Shown here piece after piece: positions 1-40,490 of a stretch of DNA of 64,000 nt. Source of the stretch: Ehretia macrophylla (lineage: Eukaryota > Streptophyta > Magnoliopsida > Boraginales > Ehretiaceae); NCBI GenBank assembly GCA_037974665.1, contig CM075767.1, positions 17,066,840-17,130,839 on the forward strand, in the 5' to 3' direction. The position numbers and the translations under genes were made by a program. How positions within the stretch are numbered: the first letter of the stretch is position 1; each line of letters opens with the position of its first letter. The notes beneath the pieces are model-generated. The model was given only the letters and a program-made list of their open reading frames with translations. It did not search any database and was not told the origin of the DNA.

Positions 1-2523
1 ATTTCTCGGAGGTTTGGAATAAGATTTCCATTTGTTTGATTATCATGCTTTTAGAGATTCATTTTTCTTTGAATCTTATACTCTCAAATTAAAGGCTATC
101 AATGTATCTCTTGATTTTGATAAGATGATTATAAAGCTCAGAAACTAGTTTACATTTCTTTTACCCTTATTTTATTCGTTTTTTGGAAACAACTAATAGG
201 GCATATGAGCACCACACCTTCACTTTTTTGTTGCATCTCATGTAATATATGAAATATCTCGGCTCGTTAACATTCTGCTTGTTTTATAGGAACATCTCAA
301 ACAAATTGATTAGTCCTTTGTATTCTACCTTCAGGTACTCGAAGCCTGTTTTATTGTCTTTCATTTTTTCTTCACCTTCAGCAATCTGTATTTTACATCT
401 CATTAGTCATTAGGCAGGTTTTGGAGTTTGTGGGAAACTAATTTGATTTATGTTGGATGTATCTTTATAATAAACTCATTATGCGTTTTAGAATGAGGAT
501 GATAGCTTTATCTTGAATGCTCTGTTTTCCATATCTCTACTTTTTGGTCCATAATCCAGTCTTATTGCCCATTTCATTACCCTTTTGGTGATCTTTTGGT
601 TAATTAAGTTGAATACAAAAATTTTCACGAGCCTTGTTACTTTTCTTTTATTTTGTTAACAGGATTTGAGCCAGTCCAATTTGAAGGAAAAATGGAAGAT
701 TGAATCTTTATATAGTAAGAGTTATTTAGCATAAATTACTTATGGGTTATGCATATAAATTACTTTCATATATTTATATATCACATAAGTTAAATGAAAT
801 ACCTTTGTATTGACTAGTATGGAGTAAGTAGGGGATTTTGTTGTACTAATTTGTCCTAAGTCTTGTGGCTCCTATGCACGGTGGTGAAGATTGGCTCTGG
901 TGATGGTGCTCTGTTACGCGTTTATTGTGTTTATAAGTGTTGGTAAAGCAAAGGATCTTGTACAATGATGTGTTCTTGAGGTATATAGCCGTGTGTGTGA
1001 ACTAGTCATGCATATGTGTGTGAGTGTTTGTCGCGTGTATGTATGTTTGCATAAGCTACATATGTAATTAATTATTGTGCTATATGGTTTAAGGGTTAGG
1101 TGTGGGTGATATATACATATATGCATGTATTGTGTTTGAGCGAATGAATTGCGTCGTGTTAGTATTATAAGGAGGTAGAGGGTGACTGATAATGATGGTA
1201 GAGATCTTTGGTGCTGGGCATATGTTAGTAATAATGCTTGTAACAAATGATATGTATGTTCTAGTGTGTGCATCGTGTAGTATGTGCTGGTAGCTTGAGT
1301 AAGTTTAGTCAACTATGTTAAGTAGTGTATTTTCTTTTCCTTGATTAGGTCCTGCAATAGAGACGAAACAACTAGAAAAAGATAGGAGAAGATAGTATAA
1401 AGGCAAGGAAAAGATAAAAGAAGATAGAATTATAGTATGATTAGACTTATTATATTTTAATAGAACTAATTTATATGCTTAAGTGTGAAAGCATCCATAT
1501 CTAACTATGTTATTCTATTTGTTTTTCTATTGTAAATTGTTTACTTGATTTGCTTATCTCTTATTTTTGTAGGTAATATTATCTCTAGATGTGGACCCGC
1601 CAATTGTCAGAATAATGGACTATGAGTAAGATATATCTTCATGCTCTGGTTTCTGCTTTCTTATTGAACATTGAATCCAACATTTTTTGTCATGCCGGGT
1701 ATTTTAATTAACTTAAATAGTTCAATAGATAGTTTTTTAGAACCATTTTGGCATCAAATAAATTAGAAGTTGATACTTTAAGTATATCTGAAATCCAACA
1801 GGTCTATATGCTTGATCTTTTTTTATGAAATCCAAATTTTTATAGTATTTTTTATTTCATTCTTTTGCAAATTGTTTAAGCAAATAATTTTTTAATTCGT
1901 TTTTCATATTTTACAGTAAAAGGAGCAACAGTGGTTGAGCTATTCCTCTCAGTCTACAATAGCTACAGAGTTTAAGAATTATATTATCGATTGCTTATTG
2001 TTGGTTTGTCCTCCAATTACTGTAATGGAGACATGGAAAGAGTTAAACATTTGTAATTATATCATTGTGCATGATATTGGTATGCATATCTCATTTGGAA
2101 TTTGAAGTTTGTATGCCATCTTTCTAATTTCAATTTTTTGTTTTGTTATTATAAGGGCAGTTAAAAGAACTGCTACATATTCAATTATTATTGTTTTCTT
2201 TTGCTTGGTGCTTGCCTATAAGTTAATATAATTATTTTTCGAAAACAATTTCAGCATTGGCGGCGTTTTAAAAAACACCACCTATAATTTTTTTAAAATC
2301 TGTTCTATTATAGGCAGCGGTTTTCTAAAACAATTAACGATGGTTCTTGAACCGTCGCGAAAAGATTTACTTTGCGGCAGTTGGCTAAACCGCCACGATT
2401 TCTATTTGCGACCTACGAATTTGTGCCGGTTTATTGAACCGCAGCCTATTGTTTAGTGGCGGTTTAAAACTGCCGCTAATAGCTAAAATAACCGCTGCTA
2501 ATTATCACTTTTTTTTTGTACTG
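1..2523. mobile_element. CACTA DNA transposon, right-hand part (block U1)
   Basis: This is the right end of a CACTA-superfamily transposon whose left part lies outside the window. It aligns along its length with about 60966-63482, where the complete copy shows both ends. The subterminal zone (about 2250-2500) is rich in GGCGGTTT and AACCGCC words in both orientations, as expected for transposase-binding repeats. It ends in TTGTACTG at 2523, a one-base variant of the TTGTAGTG end of the other copy, and is followed directly by old Copia LTR sequence. No transposase ORF is visible, so it looks non-autonomous. The antisense 132-residue ORF at 914-1312 is low-complexity and not kept in the sister copy. 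Confidence 0.8.
1573..1938 (+). pseudogene. Captured exons resembling translation initiation factor IF-3, inside CACTA (U1)
   Basis: An exon-like segment 1573-1625 follows a TTTTTGTAG acceptor and precedes a GTAAGATA donor. It reads VILSLDVDPPIVRIMDY in one frame. Joined at 1917 (after TTTTACAG) it continues DKRSNSG and stops at 1936-1938. Organellar and bacterial IF-3 proteins carry a closely similar segment, roughly DLVxLSPxADPPVVRIMDYxKY, so I read this as a fragment of a host IF-3-like gene picked up by the transposon. The match is from memory, not from a search. The sister copy at 62546-62911 has the same structure with a few substitutions. The fragment is far too short to work as IF-3. 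Confidence 0.5.
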
Positions 2524-2695
2524 AAAATGCTCTGTAATCTCTAATAGTCAACAAGTTTGACTATTAGAGATTTGTACAGTTATGTAATCTCTATAATTCA
2601 ACAAACTTGAATTTTGCACAGCTATGTAATCTCTATAATTCAACAAGCTTGACTTCTAAAGATTTATACTACTATGTAATCCTTACAATTCAACA
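2524..2695 (-). repeat. 3' LTR of old Copia (U1), part right of the CACTA insertion
   Basis: Matches 63483-63654 and the matching part of 43218-43495. Its outer part lies beyond the CACTA element, outside the window. It contains imperfect copies of a roughly 50-bp unit ending in ATTCAACA. Confidence 0.85.
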
Positions 2696-5600
2696 CTCCC
2701 CTTGAAGTTGGTGCAAGGATGTCCCACATGCCTAACTTGCCTATAAACTTTAAGAACACTCGATTTGAGACAACGTTGGTGAGGATGTCAGCCAACTAAT
2801 CTTCTGAACGAATCTTAGGTAATTCCACAATTTTTTCATCTAGCTTTTCTTTAATGAAAAATCTATCTACCTGGACAAGCTATGTTTGGTCATGCTGAAC
2901 TGAATTATGTGCAATATCACGCGTTGTTTTATTTTCACAATACAATCAGATAGGTTGTTCAAATAAAATGCCTAAATCCTACAAGAGAAGTTTTAGCCAT
3001 AATGCCTCATAAAGAACATTTGCCAAACCTTTGAATTTAGCTTTTGCACTTGACTGAGCTACAACACTTTGTCTCTTGCTTTTCCATGTCACAAGATTAC
3101 CTCCTACAAAGTTAAAGTAACCAGAAGTAGATCGTCTGTTACCCACATCACCAACGCAGTCAGCATCAGTATATGCTTCTATGTTTTGATAGTTTGCAGT
3201 TTTAGTGAATAATATTCATTTTCCTGGAGCAGACTTCAAATACCTCAAAATTCATATAACAACATCCATATGTTGTTCACAAGAATTATGCATAAACTGA
3301 CTGACAATACTCAAGGCATAAGCAAGATCTGGTTTGGTGTGATATAAGTACATTAATCTACCTACAAGTCTTTAGTATCTTCTTTTGTCAATTGGTACTT
3401 GGTTGGATTCAACACATAGCTTTAGATTTTCTTCTACTGGAGTATCGATTGGTTGACATGCTGACATACCAGTTTCTTGTAATAGATCTAATGCATATTT
3501 TCTTTGAGATAGAAATATTCACTTATTAGAACGGGAGACTTCAATCCCAAGAAAATATTTCAAGGGGCCTAGATCTTTCATCTCATAATCTTTGGATAGA
3601 TAATTCTATAAGGTCTTCCTTTCATTAGGATTATTACCTGTAACCACCATATTATCCACATATACAATAAGCGCAGTGATTTTTCCTTTATCCCTTTTTA
3701 TGAAAAGCGTATGGTCTGAGTTGCTTTGATGGTAACTAAATGCAATCATAGATTTTTTGAACCTTCCAAACCATGCTCTAGGAGATTGTTTCATCTCATA
3801 CAATGATTTTTTTAGCCTGCATACCTTTTGGCTGTGCCTTTTTGGTATCATGCACCCAGGTAGGAGATCTATGTAGACTTCTTCAGATAATTCACCATGG
3901 AGAAAAACAATTTTCACATCAAACTGTTGTAAGGGCCAATCTATATTTACCACTAGAGATAGCAAGACATGAACTGTGTTGATTTTGGCTACAGGTGTAA
4001 ATGTTTCTATGTAATCAATCCCATAGGTTTGAGTGTATCCTTTTGCTACCAGTCTTGCCTTAAAGCATTCAATTGTGCCACCAGTCTTGTACTTTATAGT
4101 GTAAATCCATCGGCATCCAACTAGTTTCTTTCTTGGTGGAGGATCAACGAACTCCCATGTTTGATTTTTTTCCAAGGATTTCATCTCCTCATTCATAGTT
4201 GTTTTCCACCTAGGATCAACTAAGGCTTCTTGCACACTGTTAGGAATAGATACAATAGATAATTGATTCACAAAAGACATATTTGATTCCGATAAACGAT
4301 GGTTAGACACATAATGGCTCATGGGATATTTTACTTTACTAGAAAGATCTGACTTATATGTGGGTTTAGGAATACCTCTAGTGTGACGATGTGGTAATTG
4401 TCTTCTGTGTGGCTCACGAACATCTTCAGTAAACGATTGGTATGATATGTCGACTAGAGAAGAAACCATATTTTCTAGAGACTCAATTTCAGGTTGGGCT
4501 GAAGATAAACCTACTTCTTCAGTTATTGGGTGCTCATCACCACTTTGATCTAATATCATGCCACTTAAATCCAATTCACCTATATCTAAGTTGCCTTCAC
4601 CACTGGAATCCAACATTATACCACTTATATCCAAGTTGCCTTCACCTTAATTATCATAATCAAGAGTTTGAATTTCCATATGGTACTCCCCCTGAAATTC
4701 AAGTGTAGAGAAGTACATTGTGTTTTCATGAAAAATAACATCCATTGTGATAAATAATCGACTTGTTGGATGATGGTAACACCGATAACCTTTTTGATGA
4801 GTGGCATTACCAACAAAAACACATCTCAAGGTTTTAGGAGTTAATTTGGTTTGTTGATGCTTGTGAAGGTGTACCAATACCACATACCCAAAGACATGAG
4901 GAGTTAAATGTGCAATAGCTAGGGCAACAACCGCATCAGTAAGTGTTTGAAAGGGCATTTTGAAATTAATGGTGCTTGAGGGTACCCAATTGATTAAATA
5001 AGCAGCAAAGATGACTGCTTCTCCCCAATAAGACAGTGGCATTTGGGCTTCGATTAACAAAGATCGGACAACCGCTAACAAGTGTCAATTTTTTCGTTCA
5101 ACCACCCTATTCTATTAGGGTGTGTTAGAGCAAATGGTGTGATAAATCAATCATTTTGCTTCTAGATAGCGTTGAAACTCGGTACTCTGATATTCTTTAC
5201 CATTGTCACTGTGAAGAAGTTTAATATTCCTTTTATACTGAGTTTCAATTTTTTTTTATGAAACTTTTGGAATAATGAGTTCACTTCACTTTTGGATTTC
5301 ATGAAGCAAAGCCATGTCATCCTAGTACAATCATCAATAAATGTTACAAACCAACGTGACCCACCTAAAGTAGTGACTTTAGATGGACACTAGACATTAG
5401 AATGAGTCAACATAAAAGGAAGTGGACTTTTATTCAATCGTGATGGAAATGAAGCACGATGACTTTTGGCAAGTTTACAAACATCACACTTAAAACTAGA
5501 AACATCAATTGCTCTAAATAAACTGAGAAATAATTTTTTTAGATATCCAAAAGAAACATGTTCAAAACGACGATGCCATAACCATATTTCTTTCATTTTC

Positions 5601-7754
5601 TTATCGTCAGGACCACCTACTGTCAGAGCTTTTTGTAAGCTTTCAGTACTATTTGATCCCAAGTCCAAGTAATATAGCTTTCCCCGTCTAATACCACAAC
5701 TAATCATTTTCCTGATTTTGATGTCTTTAAACACACAAAAATTAGGCCAAAAAATTACAACACAAGATAAAGTAGTGGTTATTTGAGAAACTGACAAAAG
5801 GTTGTAATATAAAGATGGAACAACCAAAACATAATCTAAATTTAATGTACTTGTTAGATTCAAAGATCATTCCTCAAGCATTGGGGTGAAGGTTCTATTT
5901 GCAGTAGAGACAAATTTTTGGGATGTGTGTTTGAGTGATGAGACTTGTCAAGAATCATACGTCATGTGATCTGTTGCACCAGAATCAATTATCCATGCAT
6001 TATTCAAAACAAGTGTAGAAATAGTTAAAACCTTACCACCATTGTTTGCAGTGATTACCAATGCCGAGATGTTATGATTTCATCTTCCATCTTTGTATCG
6101 ACAACAACTGCAGTGGATGGTTTTGGTTGATTTTTCTTTGCGCGACTAAGATCCCACCATTCTAGATAGCCCACAATATCAAAACAACGACTTTTGATAT
6201 GACCAGTCTTATTGCAATGAATGCATTTGTAAGAAGACTTGTCAACACCACTGGGTGGTCTACCATTGTTGGGTCGAGCATGATCTTGTTGACCATGATT
6301 AGATTGGTTCCGAGCAACCATGGCACTAGCTTCAAATGTATCGGAATTTCCTTTGAGGGTGGTACGACGAACAACTTCTCGTCTAACCAAAGAATAACAT
6401 TCATCTAGATTTGGTACTGAGTCTCTACGCAAAATCTCTTGTCTGATTGAATCAAAATCCTCATCCAATCTAACAAAGAATATGTGTCCTCTTAGTCGTT
6501 CAATAGTTTTGCAGTAGGATTTCACATCATTTGGATCTTTTATAACCACCGTATCACGATAATCTAATTCTTAGAAAATTTATGTCAGTTCTCTATAATA
6601 CACAAAGAGAATTCGCCCAGCTTGTTTTGCAGAAAATGTTTTTTGATTAAGAGTAAAGACTTGTAATTCATCACTGCCATCATAAAAGGCTTTTGACAAA
6701 GCAATCCAAATATCATAGGTTGTGGGTAATCGTAAATAACGCCTCATGATTTCTGGAGACATGTTTGACCTTTTGATTTTCAGTATACCATTTTTCATAG
6801 TGTTCATCAGATTCTACATGTTGTTTATTCTTACCATGAATGTATGAGCTCTTGTCTCTTTCAGCAATTTGCATTTTCATGAGCTACGACCATATGTCGT
6901 AATTGGATTTAATAAGAGTGATTCCTGCATTAAAAACTCATTCGTACTGAACTATAACTAGAATAGATTTAATTCCAGATGATTCACTCATTTTTTGAGG
7001 TCATGCTATCTTTTGCTTTTATTTTTCACTTTGCTTTGAATCAAAAGACTATTGAATTAGAAGACCTTTTTTTTTTCACAACGGATTTTTTTTTTTGCCC
7101 TTTGTGAATGTTGAATGATTTCTAAAGGACAATTTCAAACATATTTACGTGGGAATGTTTGAAAGCACCTCAAAAGCATAAACTATATAGGCCACCAAAC
7201 CTTTTTTTTTTGTACAAGTTAGACAACAAAAAAAAAATTGAGATTCAAAACATTCTCACGTAAAGAAACAATGAAAAGCAAAGGTAAAAAAAATATGCGG
7301 GGCCATTTCATAATTATGTTTTCTTTAATCATTAAGCCAACTTTTCTATAGTTGACATCTTATGTGTCGTTGCTAATATTTGTAGATGTAGATATCTTCA
7401 AAAAATTGAGACTTTCAACATCATACACACACAAAAAAAAGGACTCACATAGATATGAGTCACGATGGACGGCAATGAGAGATGCGGTAACTCCGACGAC
7501 TGAACAAGTTTATTTCCCAACTTTGGCTTTGAGGGTACTATTTATTTATTTATTTATTTTGTTTTGATTCTGAGTATTTGGATTTGAATCTGGGGTTTTT
7601 TTTTTTTTTTTGATTTTTGGATGAATCTGAATATGGGTTTGGGTTTGAGTTAGTCAAAGACTAATATATATATATTTTTTGGATATGTTTGGGATTTCTG
7701 GGATTATTTTTTATGGGTTTCATATTCAAATAATCGTATACCTCTCTGATACCA

Positions 7755-8031
7755 TCTTCAAAACTAATGAAATGATTTTTTCCATTATATTACTGATTAA
7801 AAATATACAAGGTATTTATAGAGAATTTAAATCCCTCAATCTAAGCTTATCAATCTACCACAATCCTCTGTAATCTCTAATAGTCAACAAGCTTGACTAT
7901 TAGATATTTGTACAGTTATGTAATCTCTATATTTCAACAAACTTGACTTTTGCACAGCTATATAATCTGTAAAATTCAACAAGTTTGACTTCTAGAGATT
8001 TGTACAACTGTGTAATCTCTACAATTCAACA
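7755..8031 (-). repeat. 5' LTR of old Copia (U1)
   Basis: 277 bp, reading TGTTGAATTGTAGAG to TTTTGAAGA on the minus strand. The adjacent minus-strand primer site TGGTATCAGAG (7744-7754) fixes its inner edge. ATTTT at 8032-8036 corresponds to the ATTTA target duplication seen in U2. Confidence 0.88.
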
Positions 8032-9206
8032 ATTTTTAAAAATTGCTTGTGGATAAATATCCTTCATTGAACTATTAACTTGACAATTGGAAAAAGAAAT
8101 CATTTTAATCCCTAAAAAATATGATAAGTCTCAAACAGGTCCCTTTGAATAGAAAGTCTCTCAACGAATCTCTTCACTTTAATATCTAGGTTTCGTTCTT
8201 ATATACTGGGCTCGTGTCATAATATTTAGGGTGGTTGTTTCACTAAGAGCTAGGTCAATTCACTTTCAAGATGTCTTGGTGGTAAAATGGAAGACACGTG
8301 AGACTCATTCTTATATATATTTATATATTTTAATGAAAGAAGGGAGAATGCATTAAAATATCATTTTTGCCCTTTCAATTTGATTATGTTGGTTCTTTTT
8401 TCCATTAATTTTATACTTGTTCGTTGGAATGTGATTGCATTAATGTAATTTTTTTAACCAAGAAAGCAAACGGTCACACTAATTAATCTTTGATAGCCAA
8501 AATTCCTTTCTTTGGTGTCGTTGCATGAAGCAATGAAAATTTAGAAGTTCACATCATATTTTAAGGGAAAAAATAACATTTTAGTGCATTATTCCTTTTT
8601 TTCATAAAAAAATCACAAAAGAAATTAAAATGCAGGAACTTGTATAGAGATTTTCAAATTCACAGAGACTTGTTTGAGACTATCATATTTCTCTGAAACT
8701 AAGATGACTTTTTTTTCGAAAATGTTTTTCTAAAGAATGTCAAGAAATATATAACTTCAGTATATTGAAAGAATAACTAGGCATCTTCAATTCAACCGTG
8801 AATATTGCTTAAAATACTAAAAAAGGAAATTCAAAAGACACAGAAACTCCAACCAAATCCTATTCCAGTAAACTCAGTTATGTTCTCATTGGGTTTTGAG
8901 AGTTGAAATCAAACATACTTAAAAAAGAACATAGCTCACAATAACGATAATTAACAAAAACTATTTAAGGAGTCATTTGAAAGCCCAGATCACGATGAAT
9001 CTTTTTGAGAGAGACGTGTAAGTGCGAAGGAAGAGAAAAAAGAAGGGGGAAAAAAAAGTAAAATTAGAGTTCTGTTACAACCTTGATTTGTCGGCAATTT
9101 AAAACTGCATACAAGTTAAGTGATCACCGGCATAATTTATCCTTTGGGCTTTAAGTTTAATATTAAGTTGTAAATGATATATTTGTCGTTCACTTCATCA
9201 GCTTTA
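8032..9206. other. Intergenic DNA shared by blocks U1 and U2
   Basis: Aligns with 48855-50120 (about 5% different by eye). AT-rich, without a credible ORF. The short TA tract near 8310-8330 is expanded to a 49-bp (TA)n run in U2. Confidence 0.8.
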
Positions 9207-11689: not shown

Positions 11690-11697
11690 TATAAAAG
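11690..11697 (+). promoter_or_regulatory. TATA box of the divergent defensin
   Basis: TATAAAAG, 91 bp before the ATG at 11781. Spacing is like that of the U2 defensin (98 bp). This supports exon 1 at 11781 as real. Confidence 0.55.
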
Positions 11698-11780: not shown

Positions 11781-11844
11781 ATGAAGGGCATTAATTTGGT
11801 TACCACTGCTCTGTGCCTGCTGTTGCTCTTCAGTACCAACAATG
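11781..11844 (+). CDS. Divergent plant defensin, exon 1 (signal peptide)
   Basis: A 64-nt exon encoding MKGINLVTTALCLLLLFSTN plus one residue and the first base of the next codon, a clear secretion signal (charged start, then a run of hydrophobic residues). The exon length, phase-1 split after a G, and position within the signal peptide equal those of the other two defensins here (exon 1 of 64 nt each). With exon 2 at 22295 it makes a 77-residue precursor, the same length as the U2 protein. The donor is G|GTTTTT, weaker than the GTAACT donor of the others. The intron is 10.4 kb only because a 9.5-kb Gypsy sits in it; without the insert it would be about 969 nt, close to the 882 and 908 nt of its paralogues. 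Spacing and frame support the call; transcript evidence is lacking. Confidence 0.65.
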
Positions 11845-12071
11845 GTTTTTTTTTTCTCTATCTCATCCATGCGATATTGCATCATTACATTAATTACGGC
11901 TTCAATTCTGTTTGATTTTTGTTACAATTTAATTTGTACAATGCTCCTATATTGATAAGATAGAACCGAATAATTTTTAATATAGTATTAAAGTTGAGAC
12001 TTAGTCAATTCTTATTCATTCATGTCTGAATTATTTTTCTTACTGATGAAACCCATACTTTTAAAGAAAAG

Positions 12072-12410
12072 GTTAATACTTATTTTGGTCTTTTATCTTT
12101 GACTTAATTGACAAAGTAGTCATTTATTTTTAAAAGTGATACATTTCAGTCTCTTATCTTTGGTCTAAGTGACACCGTTAGTCATTTTTAGTGATTTTGT
12201 TAAAATATTGACGAAAAACGCACGTACTAAATGCACAATTTGGGATAAATGTCCTAATCACGTGTGTTTTACGACAATTTTTTTAAACAAAATTACTAAA
12301 AATGACTAACAGTATTACTTGGACAAAAGTTAAGAGACTGAAATATATCACTTTTAAAGATAAGGACCACTTTGTCAATCAGGTTAAATATAAAGAACCA
12401 AAATGGGTAT
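12072..12410. mobile_element. MITE with long inverted repeats, split by the Gypsy element
   Basis: The left arm begins GTTAATACTTATTTTGG and folds back on the segment ending at 12410; the last bases of the right arm (to GTATTAAC, 21891-21895) lie beyond the Gypsy insertion. Arms over 100 bp pair imperfectly (TTGACAAAGTAGTC against GACCACTTTGTCAA). It therefore lay in the defensin intron before the Gypsy arrived. Flanks are A-rich and I could not fix a clean target duplication. Confidence 0.6.
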
Positions 12411-12890
12411 TGATAAGGGCAAAAGCGCCAACCTCGAGAAAAGGATTCCCATGCCCCTGAGACATCATTTTTATCACACAAAAGTAGGAAGGTCCCCGGC
12501 AACCGACCTAACCTCCGCACCTCGCCTACCTCCCAATGACATCCCAAAACGGACCTCTCGATGACATCCCAACACGGACCTCCCAATGATATCCCAAAAA
12601 ATCTTATCCAAACGACAACTTACCTGACAAAGTTTGCGAGTGTCAGAGCATGTCGTTTCTCTCTCATCTAGAGACTATAAATCGTACTCAACATTCTTCA
12701 GGGGAGGTGACTAATTTATTATTGTCAAAAATTATCTACACTCTTCTTCTTTAAGCACCCAGCTGACTTAAACATCAGAGTGCTAACGCAAGGACGCCCC
12801 TTGCAGCTCCGTTCTTTGTTTTGCAGGTTTACAAAAGTTGGAAGCAAGCTTGATTCCCAAATCCAGCTTTACCAAATTCATACCTTAACA
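12411..12890 (+). repeat. 5' LTR of Gypsy element
   Basis: 480 bp, TG at its start and CA at its end, bounded by GGTAT (12406-12410) and the primer site at 12891. TATAAATC near 12675 is the likely core promoter. Confidence 0.9.
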
Positions 12891-12942
12891 GTTTGGCGAC
12901 GTCTGTGGGAAATCGAAAAAGATTCCTCATTGAGCAAAAACA

Positions 12943-14082
12943 ATGGTTCATACTAGAAGTCATGTCGGCTCTGGCAACTTATCACCACAGAACAACAATG
13001 AGCGGCAATTTACCGAAATGACCCCCATACCAGAAATGGATGCTCCAGCTGAAAATATCATACAACAGCAAAAAAACCCGGTTGGACCATCTGGGACAGC
13101 CCAGACTGGGCAGCCTGTGCAAGAGCAAGTGTCGCGTAATGAGATGCAAATGCTTACTCAACTGGTCCACATCATGAAGCAGACCATGGACAGCTTCATC
13201 CAGGAGCAAAGGTCAGATAGAGAACAACCTCTAGCACCCCGGAGAGCTCGTTCAGGCAATGACCGATGCTCTCTACCCAGGCGAAAAGAACCAAGGTAGA
13301 AGGAAAAGATGAGGGAAGATTCCATCAGTTCCTTCAGCAGGGAAGTAAGGAGGCCACAAAGGCAAGAAAGCGACAGGTCAGATCCAGACCTGGCAAGAAT
13401 CCCGGAGGATTTAAAAAGATCAATAAGCGGCCAAGGTTTCCATTCATTCGTCAGAAGGATACGAGAGGTGTCCACAGCAGCATATAACCTGCCCAAACTA
13501 CCAGTGTATGATGGCACGGGAGATTCGGAAGACCACGTGCAACGCTTTGACCATCTTATGCTCTTTAAAGAAGTGCTTGAGGAAGTCAAGTGCAAAGCGT
13601 TCCCCGGAACACTCGATGATACTGCAAGAAAATGGTTATGTGGTTTACCTAAAAATTCCGTTAGGAGTTATGCTAACATGGTTGAGGTTTTTCTGAACAG
13701 ATTTTCCAGCAGCACCAAGGCATCAAAGCCCACTACCTCCCTGTTTCGGCTAGAGCAGGGAAAGGATGAAACTTTTCGTGAGTACACAGAAAAGTTCAAC
13801 AAAGCAACCCTAGACATCCTAGGCCTAGAGGAAGCTATGGTTATAGTAGCCTACAAGCAGGGGTTAACCAGGTCTAAACATTTTCGCTCCTCCCTGGCCA
13901 GGAAGGAACCTAGAGATCTAGACCACCTAATGAAAAAAGCTAGGAAATACATCACATTCGAGGAAGATACCGTGGATCTAAAGCACAAGGTGAAAAGCTC
14001 TATTCGTGTAGCGCCCCACGGGAAAGGGAGAGACGAAGGATCCACCAGAGGATCCAGGTCGAGTCCGATGATGAGCTTTTAA
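12943..14082 (+). pseudogene. Gypsy gag region (fossil)
   Basis: Begins MVHTRSHVGSGN, 52 bp after the 5' LTR, with a polar N-terminal part and a retrotransposon gag core around 13550-13920 (KAFPGTLDDTARKW and YTEKFNKATLDILGLEEAM). Capsid-type protein of the element; not a host gene. Confidence 0.8.
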
Positions 14083-14184
14083 ACTCATAGAGACAGGTTT
14101 GAGAAATACACGCCATTGACTATGCCTAGGTTAGAAGTGCTAATGGAGATCAAGTCTTGACCTGACCTTTACATTAAATGGCCC

Positions 14185-14961
14185 GTGATGCTGAGATCAA
14201 ATCCTGAGAGAAGAGGAAAAGAGAAGTTCTGTTGGTTTCACCAAGACTACGGTCACGAAACCAATAAGTGCAAGAACTTGAAGAATGAAATCGAAGCTCT
14301 AATCCAAATAGGGAAGCTCAATAATTACGTAGCTGAGAAGGAACAGGATCCCGAGCACGTAGGTGGACGAGAAAGGGACAGGAGCCCGCGGAAGGTCGAT
14401 GGGAGGTTGATCGACATCAACATGATCACTGGAGAATCGGCTACAGGAGGCATCAACAGATCAGCCAGTAGAGCATACGTAAGATCAGGAAGAGAAGAGC
14501 CATTACCCAAAAAGTCAAGAGTTCACGAGGAATTAATCATCTCAACTTATGACTTGGAAGAAGTCAAAACCCCGCATGACGATCCATTAGTAATCACCAT
14601 ACAAATTGCAAAACGCAATGTCCAGTGGATGATGATTGACATGGGCAGCTCAACTGATGTACTGTTCTACGACGCCTATCTTAGAATGGGCTTTACCAGA
14701 GAACAGCTTGCTGTGTTCAATGGTGAACTAATGGGATTCACTGGCTATGGTTTCAGACCGGAATGCATAATCCAGCTCCTTATCACTATCGGGCCAGAAA
14801 ACAAGCAGGTCCAATTCATGACAGAATTTTTGATAATAGACTATCAATCAGCGTACAACGGGATATTGGGACGTTTGGTCCTCCATCACCTTAGGGCGGT
14901 CGTCTCGACCTACTACCAGGTAATGAAATTTCCAACACATGGTGGCATAGTAGTGGTTTAA
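14185..14961 (+). pseudogene. Gypsy nucleocapsid-like segment and protease (fossil)
   Basis: Starts with FCWFHQDYGHETNKC, followed by LKNEIEALIQIGKL, a signature of Tat-like gag ends, then an aspartic protease segment (IDMGSSTDVLFYDAYLRMG) near 14635-14695. Confidence 0.75.
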
Positions 14962-15036
14962 AGAGACCAAAGGGCGACAAAAGAATGCTACGCTGCTGCA
15001 CTGAAAATCAAAGGCTCTAGTCCATGGGATGGGGCG

Positions 15037-16992
15037 ATGAAGGAAAGAAAAAAAGACAAGAAGAAGGAAAGAAAAGGGCAGGAGATAAAAGCAATCCCAA
15101 TAGAAAAATTGGATGAGGTCGAGATGGAGCCAGGAAAAATAATTCGGGTCGGCGGTAAGCTGAATCCCTTAATGAAAGAAGGTATAACCAATTTCTTATT
15201 TGAGAACAAAGATATATTTGCATTGTCTTCTTCTGACATGACAAGAATAGGCCCGAGTCCATAGTGCACCACTTGAATGTGGACCCGAATCACAGGCTGG
15301 TAAAATAGAAGCGCAGGAACTTCCATCCTGATAGGAATTAAACCATCAAAGAAGAGGTTGGGAAGCTTCTGAAAGCAGGTCATTTTTGGGAGGTACAATA
15401 CCCGACTTGGTTGGCCAACGTAGTCTAGGTAAAGAAAGCCTCAGGGCAGTGGCGAATGTGTATGGACTATACAGATCTCAACAAGGCTTGCCCGAAAGAT
15501 TGCTATCATCTGCCTCAGATAGACTAACTGGTAGAGTCAATCTCGGGGAGCCAGATGCTGTAGTTTATGGATGCATTCAAATGATATAACCAGATCAAGA
15601 TGGCCCCAGAAAATGAAGAGAAAATCGCATTCATCGCCGACGGAGGCACCTACTGTTACATGGTGATGCCCTTCAAACTGAAGAACGCAGGGGCCACCTA
15701 TCAGAGGATGATGAACCAGGTTTTCCAGCACTAGATCGCGCATAACATGGAAGTTTATGTGGATGATAAGGTGGTAAAAAGCCAAAGCACAGAGGATCAC
15801 CCAGCCGATCTGGCAGAAGCATTCGAACCCATGAAGAGGTTCGAGATCAAGTTAAATCCAGAAAAATGCACATTTGCGGTAACTAGAAAATTCATGGGAT
15901 ATATGATCACCCATAAGGGAATTGAAGCAAACCCGAACAAGATCCAAGCTATCCTTGAGATGACCCCCCTCCCCCCCCCCTTCCCCCCCGCAGAGTATAA
16001 GGGAGTGCAGTCATTGGCAGGAAAAATGGCAACACTTAGCAGATTCATGGCAGGTCGGCCGACAAATGTGCACCCTTATTCAAGGTGTTGCGAGGCCCAA
16101 AAAATTTCCAATGGACAGAAGAATGCCAGAAGGCTTTTGAGGGATTAAAGGAGTACCTGAGCTTTTCCCCAATATTGTCCCAACCCGAACATGGGAAGCC
16201 ACTCTATGCTTACTTGTCAATAACGGCCATAGTAGTAACAGCGGCCTTGGTTCGAGAAGACGGGCGAATTCAAAAACCAGTTTATTACATCAGCAAAGCC
16301 CTTCATGGGGCTGAGGCCAAATACCCGTAGATTGAGAAAGTCACCTTGGCACTGATAACAGCTTTGAGGAAGTTAAAGTATTACTTCGATGCGCATCTAA
16401 TCAGAGTGATGACGAACCTACCTCTAAGACAAGTCTTAAGCCGACCAGAAGTATTAGGAAAGTTGTTAAAATGGGCAGTAGAATTAAGCCAATTTGACAT
16501 CGAGTACCAACCCGATCGGCAATAAAAGCCCAGGCACTTGCGGATTTCATAGTCAAGTGCACTGGAGAAATAAAAGCAGAAGATCCGACCTGGTACATGC
16601 AGGTCGATGGATCTTTTAACAGACAAGAGAGCGGAGCAGGGAGAGTGTTGACAAGTCCATCCGAGGAAGAGATGCTATACTCACTGAAATTTGGGTTTCC
16701 AGCCTCGAATAATGAGGGCGAATATGAGGCCTTGGTAGCAAGACTGAAAATGGCCAAATTGCTGGGGGCAATGGCCGTAGATGTGCAGACTGATTCACAG
16801 TTAGTAGCCCACCAGGTCCACAGGGAATACGAAGCAAGAGAGCCTATAATGGCGGCATACCTAACCCATGTTAAGGATATTCTATCAAGGTTTGAACGGT
16901 TCAGCATAACACAGGTCCCTCGAGGGGAAAATGAAAGAACAGACGCACTTTCTCGATTAGTGCTAAACACAACTAAAAGAGCAATAGTGTAG
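15037..16992 (+). pseudogene. Gypsy reverse transcriptase and RNase H (fossil)
   Basis: The reverse-transcriptase catalytic motif YVDD lies near 15758, with a downstream connection segment (QKAFEGLKEYLSFSPILSQP) around 16127-16190. An RNase H with DGSFNRQESGAG and DVQTDSQLVAHQV spans 16597-16992. Domain order is typical of Ty3/Gypsy. Confidence 0.8.
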
Positions 16993-17159
16993 CTCGGGGA
17001 GGTCGAAAGACCCAGCATCATTGTGAAAGGAAAACTAATAGCCACCATCAGCTTTAAAGATGCTTGGACTCAACCCTGGGTCTAGTATCTAAAGAACGGA
17101 ACACTTCCCAGCGAAAGAAATGAAGCCAGGGCAATCGAGCGCTGAGCTCACCGATTTAC

Positions 17160-18297
17160 CATGATCGGCGACCAGTTGTACAAGAGATCATTCACTTGCT
17201 CGCTTCTTAAATGCGTGGACCAGGAGGAAAGGAGGTACGTACTCCGGGAAGTCCATGAAGGAATATGCAGAAATCATATGGGATACCGAGCTCTGGATCG
17301 ATTAGTGTTAAGGCAAGGATACTACTAGCCCATGCTTCATGAAAATGCACAAAGTTTTGTGTAAAAATGTGATGTCTGTCAAAGATTCTCAAGGATTCCA
17401 AGATTACCAGCCATTGAGATGACTTGTATTACCAACCCATGGCCCTTCACCCAATGGGGACTGGACATCATAGGAAAGCTCCCCATCAGCGTTGGATAGA
17501 AGAAATACATCTTTGTAGCCATCGACTACTTTACGAAGTGCGTAGAGGCTGAACTAACCTTTACCATAACCAACAAGCTGCTTGAAAATTCCTATGGAAG
17601 AATGATGTTTGTAGGTTCAGGATTTCACGGACTGTGATCACCGACCACGACACACAATTCGATTGTGCTTACTTTAAGAGACAGTGCAAAGAACTAAGCA
17701 TGTCATTAAGATTTGTATCTGTAGCTCATCCGCAGACCAACAGTTAAGTCGAGGTCATTAATCGAACTCTTTTGCAGGCATTAAGGACGAAAGTGGAGAA
17801 TGCCAAAGGTTTATAGGCCGAGCTGCTCCCCGAGGTGTTTTGGTCTATGAGGACAACCCCAAGCTCGGCAACAAGGGAACTCCTTTCTGCCTGACCTATG
17901 GGACGAAGGCGGTGCTGCCAGTAGAGATAGGCTCACCAACCCCCAAGATATCTAATTTCAATGAAGAAACAAATAACAGGGTCCTGAGAACGAACCTCGA
18001 CCTAACAGAAGAGTTCAGGGTGAAAGCTCAAATCAAAATGTTAGAAAATAAAAGAGCCATGGAATGAGGCTACATCAAGCTCGTTCGACCTCGGCGTTTG
18101 CAAAAATGAGACTTAGTCTCGAGAAAAATATGTTTTTGACCCGATCCTACCCAGGGAAAACTTGGGCCACGTTAGGAAGGCCCTTACAGATCACAGAAGA
18201 GCTCAAGCCAGGAACTTACAAGCTGGCTGATCTAGAAGGGAGAGTGCTTAAGAATGCTTGGCATATTGAGAATCTTAAAAAGTATTTTGTGCAATGA
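17160..18297 (+). pseudogene. Gypsy integrase (fossil)
   Basis: A zinc-binding start (about 17250-17390), a catalytic core (IFVAIDYFTKCVEAE near 17509-17553) and a C-terminal part with ITEELKPGTYKLADLEG and AWHIENLKKYF ending at 18297. The integrase after RNase H marks the element as Gypsy rather than Copia. Confidence 0.78.
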
Positions 18298-18763
18298 TCT
18301 GAAGTAATCAATGAAATACAAAAATGCGTTTTCCTATACCTTTTGCAAGTACTTATTATTACAAATTTTATGAGGTCAAAAGCCATTAAGGCAAGACCCA
18401 AGGTCGAAAAATCACAAGGTTTGACCCGTCAAATCGCTAAAGGAGTTCCTAAAAGCACTAAAAGGAACCATTAAGCGGTAAGGTTGTGAAATAGCCTGAT
18501 AAGCAACTGGTAGTTGCGCCCGAGTGGTCACACAAAAGTCAAAGAATTGACAACAAAACATGCAAAGATAAAAGATGTATGTACAAATACAGAAGACCTG
18601 AAAAGGGTAAGAGAGAAGTCATAACATTTCTCATAAATACATAAAAAAGAAAGAAGGAAAAAAAGAGATGTCTAAACCTCCCACAAAGTGAAAGAGAAAT
18701 TCAGTTATACATCAAGAGAAAGGTCAACAAGAAGACCTCAAAAAAAAAAAAAATCAAAGGAAA

Positions 18764-20998
18764 CTAGACATCAGCAAGACCATCGTCGTCCTCCCTCTCT
18801 AAGTCAGATGTAGACTCCCTCAGTAGCGAGGAAAAGTCAAACTCAACACCGCGAGCTCTGGCCAGCTTCTCGGCTCGCATAAAAGAGATCTGTTGGCCTT
18901 CGGTGATGCAACGGCTCTGGGCTTTGAAGTAGGCCTGAGAGAAAACCTCGCGATACTTATCACTGCCTTTGTAATCCTCAGTAACTACTTGAGCTCGAGC
19001 CTCGTGATTTACCAACGAGGTATTCAATACCAAGCTCAAAACCTCAACAAGCTGCTGGGAAGAAGACAAACCAGCCCGAGTCCTTCTTAAGTCACTCTCG
19101 TGCTGAGCCTTCAGCGCCCTGACCTCCGCCTCATGAGACGTCTTCAGGCCAGAAATCTCTTGTTCTTTCTCATTTTTGTACTTGGCATAGCCATGGAGAT
19201 ATGTCTTCTTTTCATAGTATCTATCTGTCAGGTCATTCGCAAGATTTTCGGCCTTAAGAAAATACTTATTGCCATCATAGTGAGCTTGAGTTTGCTGCCA
19301 AATGAGGAATAACACAGATGAGATCAACATGAATAATTATAGATTGAAAAATTAAAACTGGTATAAGGAGAAGGCAAACCTGTTTGAAGCAGTATTCTAT
19401 GGCCTCTCTCACCGCAAGAGAGTTAACTAACTTAGAGGGGGCACTCAAAATCGCCTCAAAATGGGGATCTTTCTTGTAACTAGGCTAAGGCCCCAGATTG
19501 AATTTGATTCTCGGAGAGGCAGTAATGCTAGGTTTAGGATGGGCCCCCTAGTGAGCAAGATCAGCAGATTGCGTGTCTCAATTCGGTGGGTCGACAGCCT
19601 TACCCTCTGGCTCTTCTAAAGGGACTGGTCCCCTAGTCTCATTAACAAAGAATTGTGGGTGCTCATTGGCGGGATGTTCGATACCAACCTTACGAACCTC
19701 TACCTAGACCTTAACAGTCTCAAAGCGACTCCTTTTGAAAGGAGCAGTGCCCTCACCCATCTTCTTTTTTCCTTTCCATTGAGCCTGCTATGCTAAGGTA
19801 GCCTTTAGCTCATCAGAAATATCCATCCCTATAAAAAAAAAAGAGAAAAGAGAATGGTTAACTTGGGAAAATGAGCAAAAGGAAAGGCAAAAACCTATGA
19901 AAACTCGGCCTTACCAATAGTGGGATAATGATCTTCGAACGTCTCAACCTCACTCTTAAGAGAAGGTTTGGGAGATTCACACATATTTGGATTAGCTTAG
20001 GGAATTCGGGGATTCTCCCCATACAGGTCTGAGTTGAAAACCTCCTCAAGAACCAAAAATCTATTACCATCAACACGAAGGTGACCCTTGAAGAAGTATC
20101 TTATAGCTTCCTCTTCCGGGGTCAAGACCCCACTAGTTGGATAAGGTTTCGGGAGAACACGCCACTTGGCACTGACATCCCACTCCGAATCAGAGAAAAT
20201 ATACATTTATTTAGAATGCCATCCATTGTTTGAAGAAGGCCACTTCGTAAAAAGGTTTTTTCCAGTTTGGGCGGTAAAATAATACCAACCCAGTCCATCA
20301 GCAAACTTTATTGCGTAAAAGTAAAGGAAGAGGTTAGGAATCGGATCAAAGCCTAACTCCTTAAGGTACCTATAAAACCCGATCATCATCCGTCAGCTAT
20401 TCGGAATCACCTGACCAGGACTAAGATTGAAGATGTTTAGGATGGTTCTGATAAAGGAAGGGATATGCAAAACATAAAACTGGAAGATATCAGTATAAAA
20501 AGTGACCTCACCATCACCAGGTCGACAGGCCCTCTCGCGTTTTTTGGGAATTCGTAGAGAAAAGCCAGATGGGACAACCCCACTACTCTTAACATAAAGA
20601 GCAAGTTCATCACTAACGTGGCAGTTGCGCGACAAAGCAGTAAACTGAGGCTCGACCGTTCTACAAGAAGCTACGGTAGTCCTCTCCGACCTCCTAGGGG
20701 AGTTAGGACTGGAGGAAATAGGAATTGTGGACTCAACTGTTGCCACAGTAATGGGTGCTCTAACTTCAATAGGTGGGGGAGCAAAATGGCACAAGTTAAC
20801 CCTAATAGGGGAGACAACCCTAAGTGGAGTAGTGGTAACAGCTGTTGCCCTAAGGAAAATCCAAAAGGGATGACTAGCCTTAGGTGTTGAAGGCACATTC
20901 TCAACGGGGGTACCAGGATTAAAAGAAGAATCACTACTCTCCTCGCTGCCATAAGAGTGATCAGATTGATTCTAGGAGTCCGAACTACTGCTACTCAT
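18764..20998 (-). pseudogene. Antisense ORF region of the Tat-like Gypsy (fossil)
   Basis: Between integrase and 3' LTR a coding-like region runs on the opposite strand from ATG at 20998 (MSSSSSDS) to 18764. Segments include GDGEVTFYTDIFQFYVLHIP, FYRYLKELGFDPIPNLFLYF and WYYFTAQTGKNLF (about 20250-20530) and a coiled-coil-like KNEKEQEISGLKTSHEAEV (about 19080-19180). I recognise this layout from the protein family annotated as putative gypsy-type transposon (PF04195), and antisense ORFs are known in Grande/Tat-like elements. A TATA-like CTATAAGTAG on the minus strand near 21190-21200 could be its promoter. Several breaks. Assignment is from memory. Confidence 0.6.
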
Positions 20999-21430
20999 TG
21001 TTCAAAATATATATAAGAAGGAGGAAACGGCTATAAAGACATACCTAGCAAATCAAGGCCCTAAAGAGATGACAAAGAGGCGAGAAGTTCACGGACAGAG
21101 AATAAGGGAGAAAGAAGACGATCACGGGATATGCAAGGAAGAACAAAACAAGTTTAAAAAAAGGTGAAGTTTGAAACTTGAAAAGACCCTCTACTTATAG
21201 ACAAAAATAAAGGGAAATTGAAGAATCCCGAAAGATGCGCCAGTTACACTAGACACAACGCTTTAGAAAAGCTGCCAAAACTAACGCATTAATGAGAGGA
21301 CGACATGTGGCATAGAGCAGTAAATGACCTGCCAAAAATAACACAGCTGGGAAAGATCGAGGTTGGGCAAAAGCACCAAAAAGGTGATTTCCTGACTTGC
21401 TTGCAACAACTCAAAAAATCAGGGGGCAGT

Positions 21431-21886
21431 TGATAAGGGCAAAAACGCCAACCTCGACAAAAGGACTCCCATGCCCCTAAGGCATCATTTCTATCACACA
21501 AAAGTAGGAAGGTCTCCGGCAACCGACCTAACCTCCGCACCTTGTCTACCTCCCGATGACATCCCAAAATGGACCTCCCGATAATATCCCAAAAAATCTT
21601 ATCCAAACGACAACTCACCCGACAAAGTCTACGGGTGTCAGAGCATGGCGATTTTTCTCTTATCCAGAGAGTATAAATCGTACCCAACATTCTTCAGGGG
21701 AGGTAACTAACTTATTATTGTCACAAATTATCTACACTTTTCTTCTTCAAGCACCCAGCTGACTTAAGTATCGGAGTGCTAACGCAGAGCCGCCCCTTGC
21801 AGCTCCATTCTCTGTTTTGCAGGTTTACGGAAGTTGGAAACAAGCTTGATTCCCAAATCCAGCTTCACCAGATTCATACCTTAACA
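21431..21886 (+). repeat. 3' LTR of Gypsy element
   Basis: 456 bp, about 9% different from the 5' LTR and lacking about 24 bases in the middle. Followed by the GGTAT target duplication (21887-21891). Confidence 0.9.
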
Positions 21887-22294
21887 GGTATTAACTGTAA
21901 AAAAAACTGCATAGTTTTGCCGATGTCGATTCAATTTCTCCATGCAAACCGATAATGCGGTTATTTAATTTTATTACTAGAAATTTTGGCATGAAAAATG
22001 ACCAAGGCTGCATCATTAGAAGAATAACCATTATAGGGTCGTCATTGCATCAAAATCATGGATATATATTTCCCTATGTTTTTATTCTATAACGTTACTG
22101 CAAGATGGTTTCCTTTTGCCAGCGTTAGTGATAATTTCTAGTTAGCTATATTGCATAACCATTGTAAGACAATATTTGTCTTTCGAATGAGAGGAAAAAT
22201 TAATGTTTTTCCATTTGCATTCAGAGATGGTAATGTTGTCTTTGTCATTGTCATCATTCTCATCATGGCTTTTAATAACATGATATTTATGCAG

Positions 22295-22464
22295 AAATGG
22301 GTCCTATAAAGGCAGAAGCAAGGACATGTCTTTATAAGAGCAAAAACATTTTGGGACTATGTTTCAGTGAAGTTAGGTGCTCTAACGTTTGCCAACGCAA
22401 GGGCTATCAAGGAGGCGATTGCCGTGGATTAGGCTGTCGTTGCTTTTGTTTTAAAGATTGTTGA
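22295..22464 (+). CDS. Divergent plant defensin, exon 2 (mature peptide, nine cysteines)
   Basis: Follows a good acceptor (TTTATGCAG) and is 170 nt, exactly as long as exon 2 of the U2 and U3 defensins. It completes the signal peptide (EMGPIKAEA) and encodes a 47-residue mature peptide starting RTCLYKS. The eight conserved cysteines keep the normal spacing (C-x10-C-x5-C-x3-C-x9-C-x6-C-x-C-x3-C) and the gamma-core GGDCRG is present, but a ninth cysteine replaces arginine at mature residue 39. Plant defensins are secreted antimicrobial peptides held by four disulfides, so an odd cysteine is unusual and could be unpaired or form a dimer. The frame is open to TGA at 22462-22464, and AATAAA follows at 22516. 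It shares only about half its mature residues with U2/U3. Confidence 0.85.
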
Positions 22465-22515: not shown

Positions 22516-22521
22516 AATAAA
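22516..22521 (+). other. Polyadenylation signal of the divergent defensin
   Basis: AATAAA 52 bp after the stop codon. Confidence 0.5.
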
Positions 22522-30704: not shown

Positions 30705-30879
30705 TCAATTGCAAGGCTTAAAGCAGTAGCATCGGCGACAGAACCCGCGACAATCTCCACCATTAAAACCCTCTTTCTGGCAAACTTGGGAACAATTAAC
30801 ATCACTGAGGCAGATTCCTCGAAATTTTTCACTCTTGTACATACATGTCTTTGCCTCGGCTCCCATTGGACCTATTTCT
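30705..30879 (-). pseudogene. Defensin-like exon 2, broken (about one break)
   Basis: On the minus strand, after a TTTATGCAG acceptor at 30880, the sequence encodes a propeptide (EIGPMGAEAKTC) and, further on, a defensin second half with NCSQVCQKEGFNGGDC and then RGFCRRCYCFKPC plus one asparagine and a stop. The gamma-core GGDCRG is present. It carries an extra cysteine at the position matching mature residue 38, one residue away from the extra cysteine of the 22295 gene. The reading frame looks interrupted about once. I found no matching signal-peptide exon in the next kilobase, so the gene looks incomplete. It is closest to the 22295 defensin and lies in the opposite orientation. I treat it as a fossil. 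Confidence 0.75.
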
Positions 30880-31842
30880 GCATAAAAAATATATATTAAG
30901 ACATAATATAAATTCTGAAATAAAAAAGAGAAAAAATCTAAATAATTATTAAGTTACCACCTCATCTAAAAGCTTAAAGTGTTAGAAAAGAGTGTTATAT
31001 TTATTTATTATGTTTAGCAATAATTATGTTGACAAAAAGAAGGTCTAGTTATCCCAATGCTTTTGGTATATTAAAGGATCAATAGGCATATTTTTGTTTA
31101 AAATGTCAAATTTGTTCCAACCTAAAATAATTTTATTCAAGCACAATTACTTATTCTATAGATCCTTGTTAATTCCAAATTTATACAAGATGAATTTTGT
31201 TAAAACTTACTATAAGGAAAGATTATGAACTATCGAAATTATTAGGATCTAAAATTTATTTTCTAGTAAACAATGGTAGAACACTTCAATACTAGTTGTA
31301 CTAATTGTGTAAAATATTGTTTTGAAAGGTATAACAATACTTAGAAATGGTTGGTGAGAAAATTCTTTTTATTTATTTATAATTATATATGATTTTTTCT
31401 TCAAATAAATTATTAATTAATGTATGAAGAGAAGTTGTTTTGAGTATGACATAAAAAGCCTTAGACCTTGCAATCTAGTGTACTAAGAACTTGCAACTCA
31501 TACGATTTTCACTTTTAAGGACATAGTTTTGCATAGTTATAACGAATAAATTCAACCTAACCAATAGATATAGACATCATATGGATCAAGATCAAATAGA
31601 CGAGATGAGGGAAAAAGAAATCTTTAATTTGTCTCGTAATTTTAGCTACTGCTTCTTGTGAGCTAGTGAAAATATTGCTAATTTGACATTTTCGAGCTCA
31701 ATCTATAATTCATTCGAGGCCCGGGAAAAAAAAAGAGTACGTATGAACGAGATATAAGGTAAGCATCTCTTGTTTAACCTCGAATTCTTATGTTAATTTA
31801 TTAAAATTATAATTTAAACTTAGAATCTCTTATTATAATATA
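30880..31842. other. Region upstream of the minus-strand defensin fragment
   Basis: AT-rich, with a good splice acceptor at its left edge but no recognisable signal-peptide exon. Ends at the start of block U2. Confidence 0.5.
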
Positions 31843-35151: not shown

Positions 35152-35753
35152 TGTTGATATATGTCAACATCCACCTCTTCATAATAAGTATCGTTAATTA
35201 TATGGTAGCATAAATTAATGATTACGACTTAAACGTCGATGAGGTCAAAAGAGATCGCGATGGCTACAAGAAAGAAGTTCAGAAATTTGGAATTACCTAA
35301 GATGACGTCGGGATGATACAATGCTAAAGTTAGCCAACTTGACCAAAGGAAACTTCCTAGAAGTTGACTTGGATGCTAGCCACCCATGTGGTTAATTGTA
35401 GCCACCCATGTGATAAATATGGGTGGCTAATACTTTGAACATGGTTGGTAAAGCCAACCAAGATTGAAATATTTGATAGGAAAGTCTCCTATGACGGGCT
35501 AGCTGAATTCTATAAATAGGCATGCATTAGTTCATCATTTTCATCCACAACACAACTCCAAACACAATCCTAAGTTAGTCTTTCTTTCTTGTATTCTTCT
35601 TGTAAGTCCAGAAGCCATTGAAGCTCTAATCTTGAGAGCGCGCGGTGGGACAATTATCTTGTAAGTGTTATATTGAATTGTTATAACGAGTAGTGTTGTC
35701 TTTCTACTTGATTGTTGTTAAGACATTTCTGGAAAATTGGTTATATTCTTACA
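35152..35753 (+). repeat. 5' LTR of younger Copia
   Basis: 602 bp, TGTTGATATATGTCAAC to ATATTCTTACA. Contains TATAAATA about 240 bp from its end, a TGACGTC motif, and an 11-bp inverted repeat (TAGCCACCCAT/ATGGGTGGCTA). Confidence 0.95.
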
Positions 35754-35811
35754 TGGTATCAGAGCTTAAGGGGCTCTTAACAACAATCTTGTCTAGTAAA
35801 GCTCAACAACT

Positions 35812-39861: not shown

Positions 39862-39888
39862 TCAACATGAGGTGAACATTGAGGGGGG

Positions 39889-40490
39889 TGTTGATATATG
39901 TCAACATCCACCTCTTCATAATAAGTATCGTTAATTATATGGTAGCATAAATTAATGATTCCGACTTAAACGTCGATGAGGTCAAAAGAGATCGCGATGG
40001 CTACAAGAAAGAAGTTCGGAAATTTGGAATTACCTAAGATGACGTCGGGATGATACAATGCTAAAGTTAGCCAACTTGACCAAAGGAAACTTCCTAGAAG
40101 TTGACTTGGATGCTAGCCACCCATGTGGTTAATTGTAGCCACCCATGTAATAAATATGGGTGGCTAATACTTTGAACATGGTTGGTAAAGCCAACCAAGA
40201 TTGAAATGTTTGATAGGAAAGTCTCCTATGGCGGACTAGCTGAATTCTATAAATAGGCATGCATTAGTTCATCATTTTCATCCACAACACAACTCCAAAC
40301 ACAATCCTAAGTTAGTCTTTCTTTCTTGTATTCTTCTTGTAAGTCCAGAAGCCATTGAAGCTCTAATCTTGAGAGCGCACGGTGGGACAATTATCTTGTA
40401 AGTGTTATATTGAATTGTTATAACGAGTAGTGTTGTCTTTCTACTTGATTGTTGTTAAGACGTTTCTGAGAAATTGGTTATATTCTTACA
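39889..40490 (+). repeat. 3' LTR of younger Copia
   Basis: 602 bp, about 98.3% identical to the 5' LTR. Its TATAAATA (40248-40255) points toward the U2 defensin, 577 bp from its ATG. A TGACGTC motif lies at 40040-40046. Confidence 0.95.

Follow-up and report, generated by a model that had tools for sequence, protein, structure and literature searches.

A plant defensin gene of Ehretia macrophylla carrying a Gypsy-type retrotransposon in its intron, with filled and empty paralogues in one cluster

The defensin gene and the elements in its intron

We analysed a stretch of 64,000 nucleotides of the Ehretia macrophylla genome (C4:17066840-17130839), hereafter the window, and searched 1.58 Gb of genome sequence. 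The window contains a gene of two exons (Table 1), which join into an unbroken translation of 77 amino acids, a plant defensin precursor. The match to the Pfam family Gamma-thionin (PF00304; E 1.7e-9, 38.2 bits against a cut-off of 25.1) spans residues 31-77 of the precursor and positions 1-47 of the 47 of the model. The solved relatives of this protein are plant defensins or gamma-thionins (11 distinct chain sequences at E <=0.001), the best match being the plant defensin 7c2p. Inspection of the translation showed that all eight framework cysteines of the usual plant-defensin spacing are kept. The coding part amounts to 234 nt, and the gene has the two-exon layout, with a phase 1 intron placed where the signal peptide ends. 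The initial annotation had proposed both exons, and their coordinates, lengths, phase and splice sites were reproduced here; the TATA-like box and the AATAAA signal were likewise read at the distances it gave (91 nt upstream and 52 nt downstream). Its claim that the exons equal those of relatives in length holds for the other two complete defensins of the window, as all three genes have exons of 64 and 170 nt, but not for the four direct relatives that lack the insertion, described below, in which exon 1 measures 61 nt.

Table 1 Features of the window defensin gene, its intron and its relatives (window positions unless C4 is named)
Feature	Location	Strand	Remarks
TATA-box-like TATAAAAG	11690-11697	+	91 nt upstream of ATG
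Defensin exon 1 (signal peptide)	11781-11844	+	64 nt, phase 1, GT donor
Defensin intron	11845-22294	+	10,450 nt
MITE, long inverted repeats	12071-12410	.	about 340 bp; last bases TAAC beyond the Gypsy at 21892-21895
5' target-site duplication GGTAT	12406-12410	+	
Gypsy-type LTR retrotransposon	12411-21886	+	9,476 bp; oriented like the defensin gene; reading frames disrupted
5' LTR	12411-12890	+	480 bp, TATAAA at 12676
3' LTR	21431-21886	+	456 bp, TATAAA at 21672
3' target-site duplication GGTAT	21887-21891	+	
Defensin exon 2 (propeptide end, mature peptide, stop codon)	22295-22464	+	170 nt, TGCAG acceptor, PF00304
AATAAA polyadenylation-type signal	22516-22521	+	52 nt past stop
Complete window defensin 2	40832-40895/41778-41947		exons 64 + 170 nt, intron 882 nt
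Complete window defensin 3	55197-55260/56169-56338		exons 64 + 170 nt, intron 908 nt
Filled copies	C4: A (window), B 17.288, C 17.339, D 17.238, E 17.177 Mb		same Gypsy insertion
Copy E	C4:17177637-17195773		MITE, Gypsy and third LTR element nested; intron about 17.9 kb
Empty copy e1	C4 17.049 Mb		intron 956 nt
Empty copy e2	C4 17.138 Mb		intron 976 nt
Empty copy e3	C4 17.361 Mb		intron 951 nt
Empty copy e4	C4 17.415 Mb		intron 970 nt

Most of the intron is taken up by an LTR retrotransposon. It had been described as a complete-ended Gypsy with GGTAT target duplications, and the ends bear this out: the LTRs read TG...CA and are flanked on either side by GGTAT, a target duplication of 5 bp. The interior, however, is broken. 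Profile searches recovered, in this order and all on the strand of the gene, gag (13300-14082), reverse transcriptase (RT, 15585-16148), RNase H (RT_RNaseH, 16040-16522), a second RNase H-like domain (RVT_3, 16498-16992) and a weak match to the integrase zinc-binding domain (17146-17325; E 0.004, below the cut-off), while three further pieces of the region gave no domain match. RT and the later domains are spread over several short frames instead of the intact frames of an autonomous element. The position of RT ahead of the weakly matched integrase fits Gypsy rather than Copia. A second, archaeal-type RNase H after the first is a hallmark of the Tat-type Gypsy lineage, and in this element RVT_3 follows RT_RNaseH. 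The family is common, since an LTR search of the genome gave 357 first-look candidates; the 40 that were scored yielded 43 matches, ten of which are the LTRs of the filled copies A to E.

Without the Gypsy and one target duplication the intron would measure 969 nt. The initial annotation had estimated about 969 nt and compared this with paralogues, and the length stands; the empty paralogues have introns of 951-976 nt. It had overlooked, however, that this residual intron includes an element of about 340 bp which hosts the Gypsy. Short, non-coding, bounded by inverted repeats and present in many copies, that element has the properties of a MITE. Its arms (12124-12205 and 12282-12363) are 88% complementary, and of 1358 first-look candidates genome-wide 40 were scored, among which full-length or nearly full-length matches were found on many contigs. 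The insertion point of the Gypsy falls within the right terminal repeat of the MITE, which reads ...AAAATGGGTAT before the retrotransposon and resumes as GGTATTAAC... after it. In the empty paralogue e2 the same site reads unbroken as ...AAAATGGGTATTAACC..., and e1, e3 and e4 match e2 there except for a few substitutions.

A single insertion, later duplicated with the gene

Exon 2 DNA of the window gene found nine places and exon 1 DNA, with the 91 nt upstream of it, found twelve, all at C4 17.04-17.42 Mb. Complete genes of this type number nine, all on contig C4: the window copy A and four others (B to E) are filled with the Gypsy, and e1 to e4 are empty. All nine keep the ATG, the reading frame, the GT-AG intron ends and the AATAAA signal, and the TATA-like box is TATAAAAG in all copies except e2, where it is TTTAAAAG. 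The MITE occurs in all nine genes and the Gypsy in five, which indicates that the MITE is the older of the two. The same insertion in five paralogues, that of the window included, and an empty site in four exclude chance as its explanation. Collectively, these comparisons make a single defensin gene split by the insertion of an LTR element a well-supported reading, as the initial annotation had proposed, since the four empty-site paralogues display the intron as it would have been before the insertion. For the empty allele that this annotation had suggested looking for, the four paralogues provide a partial counterpart within this one genome.

In copy E the Gypsy was itself invaded. A third LTR element of about 7.5 kb, with LTRs about 98% alike and the target duplication ACTAG (L031 9050 to L032 7091), lies within the Gypsy at the equivalent of window positions 18763-18767. 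In e4 a stretch of different sequence, about 1.2 kb long, interrupts the upstream region some 190 nt before the ATG (L024 about 720-1901).

Three extra exon 1 places (L034, L035 and L036, around 2090-2290) consist of promoter, exon 1 and about 128 nt of intron, without an exon 2 of this type. We considered chimaeric genes made by exon shuffling and rejected this; these places are probably orphan fragments. L034 was judged so because the defensin downstream of it aligns with the one at window positions 55197-56338, a gene that has an exon 1 of its own, and L035 and L036 were judged by their likeness to L034. We also considered gene conversion between filled and empty copies, as D and E and likewise e1 and e3 are shorter in the 3' half of the intron. 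The deletions lie at different places in the two pairs, so that conversion is not needed.

The LTRs record the order of events. Both target duplications read GGTAT in A and B, and one base has changed in each of C, D and E. An unrooted LTR tree splits all 5' LTRs from all 3' LTRs with a support of 100. This branch has a length of 0.038 substitutions per site; another well-supported one, of length 0.036, separates the 5' LTRs of A and B, and the branching order of C, D and E is without resolution in this tree. The two LTRs within a copy differ by K80 values of 0.101, 0.106, 0.099, 0.109 and 0.093 for A to E, while values between copies range from 0.023 to 0.089 for 5' LTRs and from 0.022 to 0.062 for 3' LTRs. 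Every within-copy value exceeds any between-copy value, albeit by a small margin over the largest, and the insertion must thus be older than the copies. These comparisons show one insertion event: when the Gypsy arrived, the single intron of the defensin gene already contained the MITE, whose right terminal repeat received it, and the filled copies had not yet diverged. Duplication of the filled gene together with its flanking DNA followed, giving five filled among four empty copies in one cluster. The element multiplied at this site through gene duplication, not through transposition. A and B are recent sisters, with a flank K of 0.008-0.025.

Plant substitution rates lie at 0.7-1.3e-8 per site per year, and a K of 0.10 would place the insertion at roughly 4-7 million years ago. 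This age is probably an overestimate, since divergence is higher in the element pieces (mean p 0.046-0.076) than in the flanks (0.014-0.042). Variable columns are richer in transitions in the compared parts of the Gypsy (the two LTRs plus interior stretches of about 1.9 kb on the 5' side and 2.5 kb on the 3' side) than in the flanks, with transition to transversion counts of 598:177 vs 76:47 (p 0.0005). Counted per cytosine, the excess in the Gypsy pieces is 1.3x for CG, 1.8x for CHG (p 0.019) and 2.0x for CHH. We do not claim a methylation footprint, because transversions show a similar excess (1.5x) and the GC content of the element is higher.

The gene belongs to a dense defensin cluster at C4 17.04-17.44 Mb, with 32 exon 2 matches by hand count among those listed. 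A smaller cluster lies at C20 8.42-8.86 Mb, and two exon 2 relatives there have a DNA identity of 75-78%. Downstream of the Gypsy-bearing gene, the window holds a defensin exon 2 on the minus strand (30711-30932) for which no clear exon 1 was found; C4 has five such minus-strand loci (L048-L052), three of which have non-canonical cysteines, one of these with two stops. Just upstream of the second complete defensin (40832-41947) sits a young LTR element (35152-40490), Copia-type by eye, with long open frames and 602-bp LTRs 98.3% alike. The window also contains large direct duplications (2526-9206 / 43326-50118 and 3-3041 / 60971-64000), mostly about 92% identical, which suggest that the cluster grew by segmental duplication.

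Selection on the coding exons and the state of the window gene

The two groups of copies differ in how their coding exons have evolved. Exon 2 has 19 variable columns of 170 in the filled clade, against 97 of 1516 in the flanks, and 7 of 170 in the empty clade, against 202 of 1484; this contrast between the clades has an odds ratio of 5.65 (p 6.5e-5). These counts leave out columns with gaps, a homopolymer run that forms the first 20 columns of the 5' intron half, and the upstream region, in which e4 is only partly homologous. Exon 1 alone displayed no contrast (2/64 variable columns in filled and 3/61 in empty copies, p 0.66). With both exons pooled the contrast persists (21 vs 97 in filled and 10 vs 202 in empty copies; odds ratio 4.4, p 0.0002): the exons of the empty clade vary far less than their flanks (p 1.4e-5), which indicates that the empty copies are clearly constrained, and those of the filled clade do not vary above theirs (p 0.16). 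Non-synonymous to synonymous changes, counted by hand from the codon list, are 15:6 in filled and 4:6 in empty copies (p 0.13).

Codon models fitted to 72 codons, of which 17 belong to exon 1 and 55 to exon 2, gave an omega of 0.72 for the filled clade vs 0.18 for the rest (p 0.06), and of 0.82 vs 0.23 under another topology (p 0.08). The window lineage had an omega of 1.04, with no significant difference from 1 (p 0.97) or from the remaining lineages (p 0.16). Copies A to D, a grouping chosen after seeing the data, had an omega of 1.35 vs 0.16 for the rest (p 0.0055). Copy E has three synonymous and no non-synonymous changes of its own; its omega of about 0 rejects a value of 1 in a post hoc test (p 0.0037, about 0.02 corrected for five copies), and single-copy tests of C and D were not significant. 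On these data the sequence evolution leans towards lost constraint in the window copy, although not in every Gypsy-bearing copy, and copy E is a caution that selection does not necessarily cease just because the intron is large. Constraint on the peptide of the window copy lies below detection at the limited power of these tests, while the copy itself looks intact. Moreover, the filled copies form one clade, so that any link between the Gypsy and relaxation rests on a single event.

The cysteine framework, too, is beginning to alter in three of the five filled copies. Copy A has nine cysteines in its mature domain, the ninth at precursor residue 69, copy B has the same extra cysteine and has lost one of the framework, and copy C has a different extra cysteine, while D and E are canonical, as are all four empty copies. 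In a survey of 30 exon 2 loci, the best of 80 matches, we scored as canonical only sequences with exactly eight cysteines, a strict rule under which the window copy counts as non-canonical. Canonical cysteines were found in 24 of the 30, and the six exceptions are copies A to C plus three of the five C4 minus-strand loci of another subgroup. Outside that subgroup, non-canonical loci are 3/5 among filled copies vs 0/20 among others (p 0.004), or 3/5 vs 0/13 once identical sequences are merged (p 0.012); against all 25 other loci the difference has a p of 0.04.

Based on these findings, we propose that the window gene is probably poorly expressed or silent, and drifting: an intact-looking gene on its way to becoming a pseudogene. 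The initial annotation had allowed for either continued splicing or silencing. The promoter, both exons and the splice sites outlived the insertion, and an mRNA could still be spliced across 10.4 kb. The mature peptide of most filled copies, that of the window included, has changed about as fast as non-coding DNA since they split, although the high non-synonymous change could also reflect positive selection. Most likely these copies yield little or no normal peptide, either because transcription would end early at the element or because the locus would be silenced. The intact frames are weak evidence of function, and we rejected them as proof of it: the probability that all five filled copies would be free of disabling substitutions without any constraint is 0.26, or about 0.09 by a hand estimate that adds indels at the rate of the flanks.

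The early ending of transcription can be spelled out as a mechanism under this reading, not wholly separate from it, and we put it forward tentatively. Transcripts from the defensin promoter would be cut and polyadenylated in the 5' LTR, leaving a non-coding RNA of exon 1, unless heterochromatin suppresses this. AATAAA is absent from both LTRs, which speaks against such an ending, but plant polyadenylation signals are loose and the absence proves little. The coding pieces of the element lie on the same strand as the gene, and four sense AATAAA motifs occur further inside it (16521, 16569, 18047 and 21206). A 5' LTR in the first intron acts in this manner at RPP7, as described in PMC7529245.

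Relaxation might instead stem from redundancy in a cluster of many copies and be unrelated to the Gypsy. This would agree with copy E, which has the biggest insert and no amino-acid change of its own, and with the non-canonical cysteines of the minus-strand subgroup. We regard it as somewhat doubtful, since the four empty copies belong to the same cluster and remain strongly constrained in exon 2.

A gene that is fully functional, with the 10.4-kb intron spliced out and the peptide changes due to diversifying selection on a defence peptide, seems quite unlikely to us. In its favour, all five filled copies retain unbroken frames, splice sites and a TATA-like box, exon 2 of the filled clade is more variable than the flanks (p 0.025), and the point estimate of omega for A to D lies above 1; in Arabidopsis, heterochromatic marks stay on TEs within actively transcribed genes (PMC4417168). 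The changes in the mature peptide of the window copy are the extra cysteine, F40I, W41L and R68G. Against this, the omega of A to D is indistinguishable from 1 (p 0.64), the sister copy B has lost a framework cysteine, and a hand calculation with context-specific rates predicts about 14 variable exon 2 columns in the filled clade where 19 were observed; the excess over the flanks has a p of 0.16 once exon 1 is added. Another reading, also unlikely, is that defensin copies whose introns contain 10-18 kb of nested transposons continue to be produced and remain under selection, with E under purifying selection and its sisters diversifying their mature peptide. If so, the element would act as a tolerated or even regulatory intron in a secreted-peptide gene with just 234 nt of coding sequence.

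Transcription of exon 2 from the 3' LTR, whose TATAAA is kept in all five filled copies, is very improbable, as the RNA would be without exon 1 and hence without the signal peptide, and the in-frame ATG of exon 2 begins within the propeptide.

Comparison with known intronic elements

The encoded protein resembles plant defensins (gamma-thionins, PF00304) in its signal peptide and in a mature domain with eight framework cysteines; it is unlike the usual members in having nine mature-domain cysteines. We found no description of a retrotransposon in a plant defensin intron among the titles and abstract openings of open-licence PMC papers listed for the terms searched. Intronic TEs as such are well described in Arabidopsis, where, according to PMC4417168, about 3% of TEs lie within genes, mostly in introns, and about 17% of these intragenic TEs measure at least 1 kb. 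Gypsy elements are under-represented there, at 1.7% of TEs in genes vs 17% between genes. Genes with silent intronic TEs can be transcribed through under the IBM2/EDM2 pathway (PMC4417168 and PMC7529245); compared with the intronic TEs under that control, the window element is a Gypsy-type element of 9.5 kb.

The closest known parallel is RPP7/COPIA-R7, where, again in a plant defence gene, an LTR retrotransposon occupies the first intron and separates exon 1 from the coding sequence. According to PMC7529245, the LTR element of this Arabidopsis immune gene supplies a premature polyadenylation site, which is suppressed by EDM2 and H3K9me2. That system comprises a Copia element and an immune receptor, with expression and epigenetic control shown, whereas ours comprises a Gypsy-type element and a secreted peptide in several paralogues, known from sequence alone. 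An LTR element in the intron of a defence gene is thus of a known kind, and what makes the present case useful is that the gene occurs both with and without the insertion. One genome offers, at one site, five filled and four empty versions, a natural experiment in which the effect of a large intronic retrotransposon on a defence-peptide gene could be read from RNA and methylation data without crosses or mutants.
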